A DNA stretch of 64,000 nucleotides from Pelecanus crispus (Eukaryota > Chordata > Aves > Pelecaniformes > Pelecanidae), in contig NC_134659.1 of the NCBI RefSeq assembly GCF_030463565.1, forward strand, positions 7,448,511 to 7,512,510, in the 5' to 3' direction. How positions within the stretch are numbered: position 1 is the stretch's first letter; each line of letters starts with the position of its first letter. A model generated the notes under the pieces. It was not told where the DNA came from and did no database searches. It saw nothing but the letters and a program-made list of their open reading frames with translations. Both the position numbers and the translations under genes were made by a program. Below, piece after piece: positions 15,979-31,615 of this stretch.

Positions 15979-16590
15979 CTGAGGTCCCCAGGGATCACCC
16001 GCCTGCATCCTCAGCCTGGGCACAGGGTGCTGAGGTCCCCCGGGATCACCCGCCTCCATCCCCAGCCTGGGCACAGGGTGCTGAGGTCCCCCGGGATCAC
16101 CCGCCTCCATCCCCAGCCTGGGCACAGGGTGCTGAGGTCCCCGGGGATCACCCGCCTCCATCCCCAGCCTGGGCACAGGGTGCTGAGGTCCCCGGGGATC
16201 ACCCGCCTCCATCCCCAGCCTGGGCACAGGGTGCTGAGGTCCCCCGGGATCACCCGCCTCCATCCCCAGCCTGGGCACAGGGTGCTGAGGTCCCCGGGGA
16301 TCACCCGCCTCCATCCCCAGCCTGGGCACAGGGTGCTGAGGTCCCCCGGGATCACCCGCCTCCATCCCCAGCCTGGGCACAGGGTGCTGAGGTCCCCGGG
16401 GATCACCCGCCTCCATCCCCAGCCTGGGCACAGGGTGCTGAGGTCCCCCGGGATCACCCGCCTCCATCCCCAGCCTGGGCACAGGGTGCTGAGGTCCCCA
16501 GGGATCACCCGCCTCCATCCCCAGCCTGGGCACAGGGTGCTGAGGTCCCCGGGGATCACCCGCCTCCATCCCCAGCCTGGGCACAGGGTG
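15979..16590. repeat. 51-bp minisatellite, 12 copies
   Basis: Twelve head-to-tail copies of a 51-bp unit (12 x 51 = 612 bp) with very little divergence. Most variation is in one SmaI-like site, CCCCCGGGA, CCCCGGGGA or CCCCAGGGA, which nearly alternates between copies. Because 51 is divisible by three and the unit lacks stops, both strands show open frames of a 17-residue repeat; I do not regard these as proteins. Confidence 0.97.
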
Positions 16591-17384
16591 CTGAGCCCTG
16601 TTTGGGGGTGCTGGGCCCAAGCAAGGCTGCCTTCCTCCCTTCCTCCTCCTCCCCAGCAGGGTCCCCCACAGTGGGGGGACACCCACACCCTGTCCGTAGG
16701 GTGACGGAAACCGAGGGGCCGCATCCTGCACCGCAGCCGGGGCTCAGGGAAGAGTGCCAACGGGGGCACCCGCCCGGGACCCTCGAGAGCCCCCGCACCC
16801 CTCCGGCAGCATGCAAGGGGGGGTCTGAGGGCGCAGGCATGGGTCCTGGCAGTGCCGATGGGTGTCCGTCTGTCCTGCTGGGCATCGCCCCACTTCTGGC
16901 CCTGCCGATGGGTGCTTGCCCACCCTGCCCGAGCATCACCCCCAGGTCCGTAGGGTCCCCAAAGGGGCGCTGGGGATGGGTTGGGGTCTGTCCCAGGACA
17001 GGCAGGACAGCAGCAGCCCTGCCCGGGGGGCACCCTGACCCCGTCCCCAAACCCCCCAGGCAGCCGGTGGCACGGTATCCAAGCCCCACTCGGGCTTCAC
17101 TTTCCCAGGGGCATTCCCTTAAAATACTGGGAAAACAGCAACATTTGGGTTAAAACCCCAGAGGGGGGGGTGCGCAGATAACATTTTTTAACCAAAATTG
17201 CTACGTCTGGCCACAAAACGGCTTCTGGCCACCAAAATCCTCCAGCAGCTCCTTGGCCAAAACCTTGTCCTGGACCCGCTGTGCCCCGGGAACCGCGGCC
17301 CCGGGGCCCTTTCCGGGCGCCTCTGCCCCGTCAGCAGCTCTGCGGTGCCCGCAGCGGCGCTGGGGGACTTTCCCAGGGTGGGCA

Positions 17385-18960
17385 AAGCCTTCTTGGGGTG
17401 CTTGGGGGGTCTCGGAGTGCTTGGGGGTCTTGGGGTGCTTGGGAGGGTCTCGGGGTGCTTGGGAGTCTCGGGGTGCTTGGGGGATCTCGGGGTGCTTGGG
17501 AGTCTCGGGGTGCTTGGGGGATCTCGGGGTGTTTGGGGGTCTCGGGGTGCTTGGGGGGGTCTCGGGGTGCTTGGGGGTCTTGGGGTGCTTGGGGGGGTCT
17601 CAGGGTGCTTGGGGGTCTTGGGGTGCTTGGGAGGGTCTCAGGGTGCTTGGGGTGCTTGGGGGTCTTGGGGTGCTTGGGGGCATCTCGGTGCTTGGGGGTC
17701 TTGGGGTGCTTGGGGGGGTCTCAGGGTGCTTGGGGGTCTTGGGGTGCTTGGGGGGTCTCAGGGTGCTTGGGGGTCTTGGGGTGCTTGGGGGGTCTCGGGG
17801 TGCTTGGGGTTCTTGGGGTGCTTGGGGGGGTCTCGGGGTGCTTGGGGGTCTTGGGGTGCTCGGGGGGGTCTCGGGGTGCTTGGGGGGGTCTCGGGGTGCT
17901 TGGGGGTCTTGGGGTGCTCGGGGGGGTCTCGGGGTGCTTGGGGGTCTTGGGGTGCTTGGGAGGGTCTCGGGGTACTTGGGGGGGTCTCAGGGTGCTTGGG
18001 GTGCTTGGGGGTCTTGGGGTGCTTGGGGGCATCTCGGTGCTTGGGGGTCTTGGGGTGCTTGGGGGGGTCTCAGGGTGCTTGGGGGGTCTTGGGGTGCTTG
18101 GGGGTCTCAGGGTGCTTGGGGGTCTTGGGGTGCTCGGGGGGGTCTCGGGGTGCTTGGGGTTCTTGGGGTGCTTGGGGGGGTCTCAGGGTGCTTGGGGGTC
18201 TTGGGGTGCTTGGGGGCATCTCGGTGCTTGGGGGTCTTGGGGTGCTTGGGGGGGTCTCAGGGTGCTTGGGGGGTCTTGGGGTGCTTGGGGGTCTCAGGGT
18301 GCTTGGGGGTCTTGGGGTGCTCGGGGGGGTCTCGGGGTGCTTGGGGTTCTTGGGGTGCTTGGGGGGGTCTCAGGGTGCTTGGGGGTCTTGGGGTGCTTGG
18401 GGGGGGTCTCGGGGTGCTTGGGGTTCTTGGGGTGCTTGGGGGGGTCTCAGGGTGCTTGGGGGTCTTGGGGTGCTCGGGGGGGTCTCGGGGTGCTTGGGGT
18501 TCTTGGGGTGCTTGGGGGGGTCTCAGGGTGCTTGGGGGTCTTGGGGTGCTCGGGGGGGTCTCGGGGTGCTTGGGGGTCTTGGGGTGCTTGGGGGGGGTCT
18601 CGGGGTGCTTGGGGTTCTTGGGGTGCTTGGGAGGGTCTCAGGGTGCTTGGGGGGGTCTCAGGGTGCTTGGGGTGCTTGGGGGTCTTGGGGTGCTTGGGGG
18701 CATCTCGGTGCTTGGGGGTCTTGGGGTGCTTGGGGGGGGTCTCAGGGTGCTTGGGGGGGTCTCGGGGTGCTTGGGGGGGTCTTGGGGTGCTTGGGAGGGT
18801 CTCGGGGTGCTTGGGGGTCTTAGGGTGCTTGGGGGGGTCTCGGGGTGCTTGGGGGGTCTCGGGGTGCTTGGGGGTCTTGGGGTGCTTGGGGGGGTCTCGG
18901 AGTGCTTGGGGGTCTCGGGGTGCTTGGGGGGGTCTCGGGGTGCTTGGGGGGGTCTCAGGG
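17385..18960. repeat. G-rich 17-20 bp minisatellite (~1.6 kb)
   Basis: Roughly 80 copies of a short unit, GGGGTGCTTGGGGGTCT(C/T), often in pairs of about 40 bp. The plus strand is strongly G-rich with G-runs of 4-7, so it has high G-quadruplex potential. All three forward frames stay open for 540-708 codons of GVLGGLGVLGG-type repeat purely because the unit contains no stop. The array lies in the gap between AHCYL1 and CSF1. Confidence 0.97.
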
Positions 18961-26000: not shown

Positions 26001-29000
26001 TGGGCAGAGGCAGCAGCACCCATCCCACTGTGCCTGGGGGAAACTGAGGCACGGAGCCACAAAATGCCTTTCTATGGTCCCACAGGCTGCCCAAGCTGGG
26101 ACTCGACAGCCGCCTGGCCAGGAAGGATGGGTCCCTCCTGGGCCACCTCCCACAAAGGGGGACAGGAGAGGGGAGGCTGGGGACCCAGGGACCCCCCGTG
26201 CACCAGCCAGCCCTGCTCCCTGTCCCCCTGTGTCCCCCCGTGCCCAGCAAGGAGCCACTCACCAGCCGCATCTTATTGATGAACTTGAAGGAGACCTTGC
26301 CCGGGTGCTGCATCTGGGTGTCAGCCTGGAAGGAGAGAGCAGGATGTCACCCCACGGCCCCGGGGAGGCAGGGATAACGCAGCGGGAAAGGGCAGCGGAG
26401 CCAACGCCGGCACCCCGAGGGCATGAAGGGGTGCCTGAGCCCCCCCATGAATCCGCAGGGCTGGAGGGGTTCTGCTCCCACCCCTGCTTCATCCCACACC
26501 ATCCTCCTCCTCCTCCTCACACAGATGCTTCCCTAAGGTCCAACCTCTGCTCCCACCCGGACATTGCGCTCCCCGCACCAAGGATGCCTGCCTCCACCTC
26601 TATTCCTCCTCCTCCTCTTCCTCCCAGAGCCCAGCCCTGCTCAATTCTCCCAAATCTGCTTGCTCGCTCCGCTAAAGCCGAGCTGCGAAAGAGCATCCTG
26701 CCATGCAGGAGGTGGTCGTGACACCGAGGTCACGTATCCCCTGGCGTCACACAATGCCGGCGTCCCGCACACAGCGCTGCCGCCCCCCCCCCCCCCCAAC
26801 CCCATACCATGACCCTTTCCGATGGGGGTGAAAACCCATCCCAAAAAAAAAAAAAAAAAAGCCCCCTGCCTCCGGGCCGGCATCCCAGGCTGGGAGGGCG
26901 AGGGCTGCCAGAATTGCCGGCCGGCAATTCTGGCAGCCCTCGCCCTCCCAGCCTGGGATGCCGGCCCGGAAACAATTGCTCCATTATCCCGCAGGGGCTG
27001 GAGCGAGGGCCGGCTTCTCCGCCAGCGGGAAGAGGAGAGGGCTGCAATCCCCGGCAGGGAAACCAACAACTTCCATTCAAACCTGCTCCCTCCCTTTCTC
27101 TCCCCCCAAGCACACCCCCACTTTTAATCCCCGGGGATTGCAAAGCAAAGGTTCCTTGGGGATGTGGGGTGCTGGTGCTGCAGGGACAGCTCGGGGCAGA
27201 GGAAGCTGAGCTTGCACATATCTGCCAGCTCCTGGCATCACAGCTCGGTGCTTAAAGAGGAAGAGGTAAAGCGAGCCCGGACACAGCGGTTACGTGCTGC
27301 GAGACAGAGAGCTCGATGCAAAGCAAGCGGACAGCAAGGATTCGGGAGGCACCGCTGTCGCCTCTCACCCGCGCACCCAGCTCGCTGCAACGGCAGCATT
27401 TAATCTGTGACAACCGTGCAAATCCCTGCGTGCCCCCGATTCCCATTTCTCTCCCAAGCATCCGCGTGATTTCCCCACTCAGAGGTGAGCCAAGGGCCAG
27501 GGTGGGATATGGCCCCAGCAGCCGGGACGGAGCCAGGAGTTGCCTCCCTTTGGGGTGGGTGCGAGCACCCAGAGCTGCCCACGGGATGAAGGCACCCATC
27601 GCCCCAGCCTGGCTGGCTCCATCGCCCAGCTAGCCTGGCCAGCGGCCCCCCTCGCTGCCTGCCACCCACCCACAGCCCCATTGCCAGCCCAGCTTCCAGG
27701 CAAGCAGCTGGACTCAGGAATGCAGCCGGATTCCTCAGCTTAACCCCTGCGCAGCCGCCCGGAAAACGCCACAGCCCCACAGCACCGGTCCCCTCCACCG
27801 CTTCCCCATCACCCCCGCACCCATCCAGCCCCACTCATGCCCCCTTCCCGGCCATGCTCCCGCCAGCTCCCGCTTCCCCTCTTCTTCCATTTCTCCCCCG
27901 GCACCTTTCCGTGGCCACCCTTGCTAAAGGCACCATGGTGCATCACCCCCCCAGCGCCCGCCTGTCCCTCGTGCCCACGGATGCTCAGCTCCTGGGTACC
28001 ACCACTTTGCTGGTGGAGCTGAAAAGAAGCGGATTTGCTGCTTTTCAGCCCTAAATAAGGGCTGATTTCCGCCTGCCTGGCCCCGTCGAGCCCCCCGTCC
28101 CACAGCGGAGCCCGGGGAGGGCACTCACCAGCTCCTCCAGCTCGTCCAGGTGCTTCTGCGTGATGATTTGCTGGCAGTAGCTGTTCTGCTCCGTCTCATG
28201 GATGCTGCAAACCAGGAGGAGGAGGAAGGACGACAGCAGGGTGCAGCGGAGCAGGCACACCTGAGCATGGCAGAGCAAAGGCTTGGAGCAGGGTTAACCC
28301 CCCCCCCCGAGCCCCCCTGCCCTTCCCCACCGCCCCCCGGAGCGGCCACTTTTGTGGCGAACAAGGCTCGACCACGATCCAGCGGTGTAACCCCACCACC
28401 GTCCTCCAACCCCGTGCCCGTCCCCATCCTGCTATTTTTAGGAGCGCCAGGGCAGCGGGGAATTTCCCAGTGCCCAGTGCGGGGGCTGCGTGGCCGCGGC
28501 CCGGCTGGCACAAGCCCGGACACGGCTCTCGGCCACCTCCACATTCCTTATCCAGTCCTTATCCCCTCTCCCACACCATTTCTCCGTCTCTCCTGCAAAG
28601 TCTTCTTCTCCACCCCGGCTCCGGGGAGCTGTCTGACGCACTGACCCACCCATCCCCAAAAATCCTCTTCCCACCCTCCGGACCCCCCCCAGCCTCCAAG
28701 TGCCTGCACCCGCCGGGCTCTTTCCACGCAGCGGCTCTGGCGTCGCCCCAAATTCCCCTCCCAATCTCCCTGCAAAGAAACGGGGAGGCCCCAAATCGTG
28801 GCAGGACCCCAGTGGGCAACGGGGCTTGTCCCAGGGCCGGGACCCCCGAGGCGGGGATGGAGCAGACCCCCGGGGTGGGTGCATGTGCCCCCCAACCCCC
28901 GGTGCACCCGGCACCGAGAGGGTGCCTGGGTGATTGGGGCGGGGAGGGGGGGGGAATTTCCCTTGGAGCTCGTCCAGAAATCCTCCCCTCTTGTGAAACT

Positions 29001-29718
29001 GCAAGATGCCGCCCGGGCCACAGCCGAGCCCCGGCCACGGCTGGCCGGAGCCTCACCCCGCCGGGCAGGGCTGCAGCCCGGGGCCGGGGATGGAGCCGGG
29101 GGGACGGGACGGGGCCGGGGATGGAGCCGGAGCCGAGAACCGGGGCCGGGGATGGAGCCTCACCCCACCGGGCAGGACTGCAGCCCGGGGCCGGGGATAG
29201 AGCCGGGGGGACCGGACGGGGCCGGGGATGGAGCCGGGGGGACCGGACGGGGCCGGGGATGGAGCCGGGGGGACCGGACGGGGCCGGGGATGGAGCCGGA
29301 GCCGGAGCCGAGAACCGGGGCCGGGGATGGAGCCGGAGCCGGAGCCGAGAACCGGGGCCGGGGATGGAGCCTCACCCCGCCGGGCAGAGCTGCAGCCCGG
29401 GGCCGGGGATGGAGCCGGGGGGACGGGCCGGGGCCGGGGCCGGGGCTGGAGCCGGAGCCGAGAACCGGGGCCGGGCCGGGGCTGGAGTGGGAGACCGGAG
29501 CCTCAACCCGCGTTGCCGGGAACCGAGCCGGGGCCAGAGCATCACCGGGCCGGGAGCCGGGACCCCCGCGGAGGGGCTTTACCACGTCCCCCTGCGTGAC
29601 CGAGCAGCGGGGGGGGGGGGGGGGGGCGCGGGGGCTGCTCCCCACGGGGACCCCGCGCAGGTGGCAGCGGGCGCCGTGCCGGGAGGGGCCGCCGTACCTT
29701 GGCTCCGAGGCGGGGCAT
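23048..29718 (-). CDS. CSF1: CSF1, macrophage colony-stimulating factor 1 (membrane precursor)
   Basis: This gene encodes the CSF1R ligand that drives macrophage and osteoclast growth. Eight coding exons, all GT-AG: 29,698-29,718; 28,129-28,260; 26,263-26,325; 25,772-25,951; 25,332-25,509; 23,509-24,347; 23,191-23,246; 23,048-23,099. The phases join to a 506-residue protein. A signal peptide (about 1-30, hydrophobic LLSSFLLLLVC) is followed by the four-helix cytokine domain (about 31-185). That domain has six cysteines at the family's intrachain positions (36, 77, 122, 137, 173, 181) and N-glycosylation sites NDS (73) and NSS (98). A conserved PDCNC lies at 197-201. Next comes a long Ser/Pro-rich stalk, which includes an acidic-flanked SG possibly used for glycosaminoglycan. 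A transmembrane helix (446-466) precedes a 40-residue tail ending LETQDL. The stalk lies in one large exon, the one mammals splice alternatively. The TAA is followed one base later by the last 5' splice site. The identity is secure. Confidence 0.97.
26871..26970. repeat. Perfect 100-bp palindrome, no spacer
   Basis: Two 50-base arms, 26,871-26,920 and 26,921-26,970, are exact reverse complements with no spacer (centre GCCGG|CCGGC). I checked all 50 positions; pairing stops abruptly at both outer ends. It lies in CSF1 intron 2, ten bases after an 18-base poly(A) run (26,843-26,860). Such a sequence could extrude a cruciform, or form a long RNA hairpin in the CSF1 pre-mRNA. A fold-back assembly artefact is the main alternative. 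Confidence 0.97.
29046..29545. repeat. GC-rich composite minisatellite in CSF1 intron 1
   Basis: Tandem and interspersed copies of a 31-bp unit (GGGGCCGGGGATGGAGCCGG followed by a GGGACCGGAC-type end) alternate with a longer block carrying CCTCACCCC and a GCTGCAGCCCGG word, which occurs three times. A G-run of about 18 follows near 29,610-29,626. The array begins about 150 bp inside intron 1 from CSF1 exon 1. Confidence 0.9.
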
Positions 29719-29876: not shown

Positions 29877-31615
29877 GCGGCTCGGCTCGGCTCGGCTCGG
29901 CTCGGCCCCGCTCGGCTCGGCCCGGCCCCCTCGGCCCGGCCCCCTCGGCCCGGCCCCCTCGCTCGGATCGGCTCGGATCGGCCCCGCTCAGGATCGGATC
30001 GGCTCGGATCGGCTCCGCCCTGCTCGGCTCGGCTCGGCCCCGCTCGGGTCCGCTCGGCTCGGCCCCGTTCGGCTCGGCTGGGCTCGGCTCGGCTCGGCCC
30101 CGCTCAGGATCGGATCGGCTCCAGCCCGCCTGGGCTCGGCCCTGCTCGGCTCGGATCGGATCGGGTCCAGCCCGGCTCGGCTCGGCCCTGCTCGGGTCTG
30201 CTCGGATCGGATCGGATCGGGTCCGCTCAGCTCAGCTCCGCTCGGCTCGGCTCGGCCCCGCTCAGCTCAGCTTGGCTCGGCTCAGCTCAGGTCAGATCGG
30301 GTCGGGTCCAGCCCGGCTCAGCTCGGCCCTGCTCGGCTCGGGTCGGATCGGATCAGATCAGGTCCACTCGGCTTGGCTCCACTTGGCTCCGTTCGGCCCC
30401 GCTCAGCTCAGCTCAGCCCTGCTCGGCTCAGCCCTGCTCGGCTCGGCTCAGCTCGGATCGGATCGGGTCCAGCCCGGTTCGGCTCGGCCCTGCTCGGCTC
30501 GGGTCAGATCGGATCAGATTGGGTCCGCTCGGCTCAGCTCCACTCGGCTCTGTTCGGCCCCGCTCAGCTCAGCTCAGCTCGGCTCGGCCCTGCTCAGCTC
30601 AGCTCAGGTCAGATCGGATCGGGTCCAGCCCAGCTCGGCTTGGCCCTGCTCGGATCGGGTCGGATTGGGTCGGATCGGATCGGGTCCAGCCCGGCTCGGC
30701 TCAGCTCGGCTTGGCTCGGCTCCACTTGGTTTGGCTCGGCTCGGCCCTGCTCAGCTCGGCTCGGCCCCGTTCGGCTCGGCTCGGCTCAGCTCCACTCAGC
30801 TCCGCTCAGCTCAGCTCGGCCCCACTCAGCTCGGCTCAGCCCTGCTCGGGTTGGGTCGGATCGGATAGGGTCCGCTCGGCTCAGCTCGGCTTGGCTCGGC
30901 TCCACTTGGTTCGGCTCGGCTCGGCCCTGCTCAGCTCGGCTCGGCCCCGTTCGGCTCGGCTCGGCTCAGCTCCACTCAGCTCCGCTCAGCTCAGCTCGGC
31001 CCCACTCAGCTCGGCTCAGCCCTGCTCGGGTTGGGTCGGATCGGATAGGGTCCGCTCGGCTCAGCTCGGCTTGGCTCGGCTCCACTTGGTTCGGCTCGGC
31101 TCGGCCCTGCTCAGCTCGGCTCGGCCCCGTTCGGCTCGGCTCGGCTCAGCTCCACTCAGCTCCGCTCAGCTCAGCTCGGCCCCACTCAGCTCGGCTCAGC
31201 CCTGCTCGGGTTGGGTCGGATCGGATCGGGTCCGCTCGGCTCAGCTCGGCTTGGCTCGGCTCCACTTGGTTCGGCTCGGCTCGGCCCTGCTCAGCTCGGC
31301 TCGGCCCCGTTCGGCTCGGCTCGGCTCAGCTCCACTCAGCTCCGCTCAGCTCAGCTCGGCCCCACTCAGCTCGGCTCAGCCCTGCTCGGGTTGGGTCGGA
31401 TCGGATCGGGTCCGCTCGGCTCGGCTCGGCCCTGCTCGGCTCCGCTCAGCTCGGCTCCACTCGGTTTGGCTCGGCTCGGCCCTGCTCGGCTCGGCTCGGC
31501 TCGGCCCTGCTCGGGTCGGATCGGATCAGATTGGGTCCAACCCAGCTCGGCTCGGCCCCGCTCAACTTCGCTTGGTTCGGCTCGGCTCGGCTCGGCCCCT
31601 CGGCTCGGCTCGGGA
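29877..31615. repeat. Pentanucleotide (GGCTC)n satellite upstream of CSF1
   Basis: About 1.74 kb of CTCGG pentamers with variants (CTCAG, ATCGG, CCCTG, TCCAC). Between about 30,690 and 31,410 it is organised as four 180-bp higher-order repeats (36 pentamers each) that are nearly identical. One visible difference is GATAGGG versus GATCGGG. The unit lacks stops, so several frames stay open for 300-700 codons of SARLGSA-type repeat; these are not credible proteins. Many pentamers carry a CpG. Confidence 0.97.

Follow-up and report, generated by a model that had tools for sequence, protein, structure and literature searches.

How does a perfect palindrome of 100 bases, with nothing between its two arms, come to stand in an intron of a bird gene? 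The case arises in Pelecanus crispus, in a 64-kb stretch of DNA (the window) that carries CSF1 on its minus strand. We confirmed that the palindrome is genuinely present in the assembled sequence: positions 26871-26970 equal their own reverse complement, with arms of 50 bases each, a spacer of 0 bases and 0 mismatches. Its GC content is 74% and it includes eight CpG. Symmetry stops on both sides, where CTGCC borders the left end and AACAA the right end, and neither flank pairs with the other. Exact complementarity of the arms and an abrupt end of the pairing had both been claimed in the initial annotation, and both claims held. We read the palindrome as probably the product of a single, fairly recent short-range template-switch mutation in CSF1 intron 2. 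The features that this reading draws on are collected in Table 1.

Table 1. Coordinates of the palindrome, its parts and its surroundings in the window.
Feature	Position	Strand	Remarks
Left arm	26871..26920	+	Exact palindrome; somewhat likelier the original (template); resembles the diverged direct stretch at 27007-27054; direction weakly supported
Right arm	26921..26970	+	Exact palindrome; somewhat likelier the added reverse-complement copy, with a net gain of ~40-50 bases
Centre, CCGG|CCGG	26917..26924	.	Presumed first switch point; contains the predicted four-base hairpin loop GGCC
Two further CCGG (26961, 26966)	26961..26969	.	Candidate return points; microhomology with the centre
Diverged stretch	27007..27086	+	Like the left arm up to 27054; also, weakly, like the right flank
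CSF1 intron 2 (host of the palindrome)	~26326..28128	-	Between exon 2 (end 28129) and exon 3 (start ~26325)
18-A run	26843..26860	+	10 bases from the left arm; no role shown

Arms of this length did not arise by chance. The runner-up among zero-spacer palindromes in the whole window has arms of 9 bases, and in 100 simulated windows (first-order Markov) the longest zero-spacer arm measured 7 to 11 bases, with none above 11. Elsewhere in the window the arm recurs at best over 13 exact or 16 near-exact bases. One exact 24-base pattern from the arm gave 0 matches in viral contigs and 0 in bacterial and archaeal genome contigs, as expected for such collections, and literature titles and abstract openings yielded no account of this palindrome. 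In E. coli, palindrome instability turns severe at lengths above the 100 bases found here. Human perfect inverted repeats with spacers of up to 8 bases are reported with arms of up to 140 bases, and among eukaryotes AT-rich sequence is over-represented in those with longer arms (PMC13155455); a human palindrome catalogue counts 783 of 100-200 bases, with the longest AT-rich (PMC7680136), and tolerates up to four mismatches according to PMC7999016. Given such numbers, the size of the CSF1 palindrome is uncommon but known. It shares a zero spacer and an intronic position with the long perfect inverted repeats of eukaryotes described in these sources (PMC13155455, PMC7680136), whereas the longer ones tend to be AT-rich, so that the GC-rich make-up is the less usual feature of the palindrome at CSF1. 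With its 100 bases and its GC content, it is not a PATRR, a class defined by several hundred bases and more than 90% AT (PMC7999016).

The host gene was identified from a peptide joined from the minus-strand exons, which matches Pfam PF05337 (CSF-1) with an E value of 1.9e-19. Exon 2 ends with GTGAGT following it, exon 3 starts with AG before it, and these borders place the palindrome inside intron 2, as had been proposed, more than 500 bases from exon 3 and more than 1100 from exon 2. The first coding exon would be the one with MPRLGAK near 29698-29718, and the exon numbering depends on this placement. Just upstream of the presumed first exon, a long array of CGGCT-type pentamers occupies 29878-31613, with a higher-order unit of 180 bases between 30660 and 31502 (4.7 copies, 95% matches). 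Across this array the forward-strand reading frames run on for hundreds of codons; the repeat itself causes this, and it is no evidence of a gene.

In favour of a template switch, the locus itself shows arms that match perfectly, CCGG both at the centre and close to the outer end, and non-symmetric sequence resuming on both sides. A perfect reverse-complement copy lies close to its source, as expected of a short-range template-switch mutation. The right arm opens with CCGG (26921), and the same tetranucleotide returns at 26966, one base short of the arm end, and at 26961 as CCGGC. Once the 45 bases 26925-26969 are removed, what remains is the left arm followed by CCGG, A and then the right flank, so that a four-base direct repeat may be taken to bracket the extra sequence; the palindrome being symmetric, removal from the left arm gives an equivalent CCGG-bounded reading. 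CCGG at the centre and near the outer end fits a template switch with microhomology where the strand left and rejoined its template, a match that could be chance since the window holds 492 CCGG. The initial annotation had taken the nearby 18-A run as a possible hint of template switching. We retain template switching as the likeliest cause and regard the CCGG tetranucleotides as better switch-point candidates than the 18-A run.

The event may be pictured as follows. During copying, the new strand would reach the end of one arm at CCGG (perhaps CCGGCCGG) and would then switch to backward copying, with either itself or the opposite strand as template. Some 45 bases of reverse complement would be added in this way, after which the new strand might re-pair with the original template through the CCGG at the far end and copying would resume. 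The product would be a perfect 100-base palindrome that has not yet decayed. The zero spacer would present no difficulty if the strand turned at the central GGCC, itself palindromic, or if copying moved to the opposite strand. That the change is recent, that replication was the process, where the switch points lay and that the palindrome lacks a function are all things that we infer. Recency has to be understood loosely: at assumed substitution rates of 1.0, 1.9 or 3.0e-9 per site per year, the probability that 100 sites all stay unchanged drops to 0.05 at 30, 15.8 or 10 million years, respectively, leaving aside CpG and conversion between the arms. The perfect match is thus compatible with any age up to some 10-30 million years, a loose ceiling.

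Comparable events have been described in other genomes. Short-range template switches, described by a four-point model, are numerous in the great apes and often leave perfect inverted repeats (PMC7954356); the likeness with CSF1 lies in the copying of a nearby sequence as its reverse complement, so that source and copy form a perfect inverted repeat side by side. The great-ape events are reported in surroundings more AT-rich than random (PMC7954356), whereas the CSF1 arm is 74% GC and its ancestor is deduced rather than observed. For yeast rad27 (FEN1) mutants, a route has been proposed in which the nascent strand doubles back at a short palindrome, uses itself as template and then rejoins the original one, so that palindromes are extended and bases inserted (PMC5677150). 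The proposed CSF1 event would go through the same fold-back, copying and return, likewise starting from a short palindrome and ending in a net insertion; the yeast events, however, came from a repair mutant, and nothing at CSF1 points to such a defect. New RNA stems and hairpins, microRNA loci included, have also been traced to template-switch patterns (PMC8794818).

The template-switch reading is independent of which arm is original. On that matter we compared the arms with 300 bases of right flank and 200 bases of left flank, taking significance from 500 resampled queries. The left arm, which resembles 27007-27054 in direct orientation along most of its own length, scored 41 against the right flank, a value reached by one of 500 resampled left arms and by none of 2374 other 300-base stretches of the window on both strands (best 34). 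The remaining pairs were unremarkable: 26 for the right arm and right flank (64/500 resampled as high), 18 for the left arm and left flank (268/500) and 22 for the right arm and left flank (191/500). With 15 bases of right flank added, the left arm scored 45 against the rest of that flank (0/500), and the mirror-image query, 15 bases of left flank plus the right arm, scored 25 against the rest of the left flank (265/500). When the left arm was joined to the right flank and aligned with 27003-27110, the score was 46, reached by 3 of 5000 and 3 of 3000 resampled targets and by none of 3504 other stretches outside tandem arrays (best 45). This alignment of the joined unit with the downstream stretch has 54 identities, 9 mismatches and 23 gap positions. 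Resemblance of this kind is common locally: 300 of 2000 unmasked positions, and 231 of 1067 GC-matched ones, score at least 41 against their own next 300 bases, and outside tandem arrays 8 of 1258 GC-matched ones do. Positions 26871-26920 and 27007-27054 may represent a diverged local direct duplication within CSF1 intron 2.

Deletions of 45, 44 or 40 bases from the palindrome before the alignment, picked in part after a deletion scan, gave scores of 54, 60 or 63, matched by 0 or 1 of 3000 resampled targets. The best single deletion in the scan, 26931-26970, falls within the right arm and raises the score from 49 to 63, a gain that is not unusual in itself (at least 13 in 14 of 150 resampled targets); when the scan was repeated for the opposite reading, with the right arm as original, the score peaked at 55. 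The right flank alone extends the resemblance with a score of 18 (112/5000), compared with 10 for the inverted left flank (2690/5000), and upstream of the downstream stretch we found no continuation resembling the left flank (3700/5000). In direct orientation, the opposite join, with the right arm as original, scored 23 against 27003-27110 and 25 against the upstream side. Other comparisons do not separate the two directions. Left arm plus inverted left flank, which is how the resemblance would look had the right arm been original, also scores 46 and ties with left arm plus right flank; the score with the right arm kept in place (49) exceeds that with it wholly removed (46) because the alignment can extend into the right arm. 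The deletion scan and the flank continuation together make us lean toward the left arm as the original and the right arm as the copy. That lean is weakly supported, since the opposite reading ties in one fair comparison.

Could the inverted copy have been made in the laboratory rather than in the bird? Polymerase template switching during library preparation or gap filling might have produced it, to be retained in the consensus, and we consider this unlikely. Whole-genome amplification is known to yield artificial palindromic reads (PMC6218980, PMC13265396), a total of exactly 100 bases is a round length, and the homopolymers nearby (15 C at 26783-26797, besides the 18-A run) may make the site hard to sequence. 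Such an artefact would, however, presumably need to dominate the reads or the consensus at the site, in a window that contains 0 Ns, and the symmetry is lost after 50 bases. The initial annotation had allowed for an assembly fold-back; a plain one is the less likely because the symmetry should then carry on through the reverse complement of the left flank, whereas other sequence resumes there, and the suggestion survives only in the broader form of an artefact of some kind. Quite improbable, in our judgement, is a history in which an inverted repeat with mismatches, or an inverted triplication made of the arm, its inversion and the diverged arm at 27007, existed first and was perfected later by template switching or by gene conversion between the arms. 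Correction of a quasi-palindrome to a palindrome is documented (PMC5677150), and the succession of left arm, inverted arm, 36-base gap and diverged direct stretch resembles the DUP/INV/DUP order of small inverted triplications (PMC13334657), which likewise have an inverted copy adjoining its source and a direct resemblance downstream. Those triplications, however, average 148/160/148 bases with a 30-base spacer (PMC13334657), while the CSF1 arms have 50 bases and no spacer. Moreover, the two adjoining arms are identical while the third copy is strongly diverged, as the gapped alignment above records, so that the copies differ in age, and no residual mismatch marks an older palindrome. In place of the near-identical direct third copy of a small inverted triplication there is only this diverged stretch.

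A functional role would require that the hairpin act in the cell. As single-stranded DNA, the palindrome is predicted to fold into a 48-pair stem with a GGCC loop (-74.5 kcal/mol, z -19.5 against shuffles), and as RNA with its flanks (26821-27020) the predicted fold has a z of -15.0, both far stabler than shuffles; a transcript of either strand would be the same because the palindrome is perfect. On such a stem, the CSF1 pre-mRNA might carry a young microRNA, an endogenous siRNA or an ADAR substrate, and template switching has been connected with the birth of microRNA loci (PMC8794818), but we give this very little credence. Rfam returned 0 matches at gathering score in the whole window, which speaks against a known RNA family rather than against an undescribed RNA. 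The analysis gave no support to active maintenance or to processing by Dicer, Drosha or ADAR, all raised in the initial annotation. A four-base loop and a bulge-free stem are poorly suited to Drosha, and the distances to both flanking exons given above also speak against a role. Similarly slight is the chance of a bolder version, in which a newborn, still-perfect hairpin, left by one template switch and caught before decay, would be transcribed and then processed to small RNAs or edited, altering CSF1 output in this bird lineage. Barely credible, lastly, is a short palindromic transposable element of MITE-like kind. Inverted-repeat elements of about 100 bases do exist, which is the point in its favour, yet the ends of the palindrome carry no target-site duplication (CTGCC against AACAA) and the window holds no second copy of the arm beyond the short matches noted above; we set it aside on these two grounds. 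The palindrome probably has no function, and a neutral mutation is the simplest reading.

If real, the palindrome would give a clean GC-rich instance of a vertebrate intron carrying a perfect palindrome with no spacer, one that probably arose in a single event, and it would offer a natural site for measuring the rate at which such palindromes decay or shrink. It tells little about CSF1 itself. Two minisatellites lie elsewhere in the window. The array at 15979-16595 has a 51-base unit in 12.1 copies and, with 98% matches, was probably expanded or homogenised recently; the other, at 17391-18950, is GC-rich and has a 38-base unit in about 41 copies with 86% matches.
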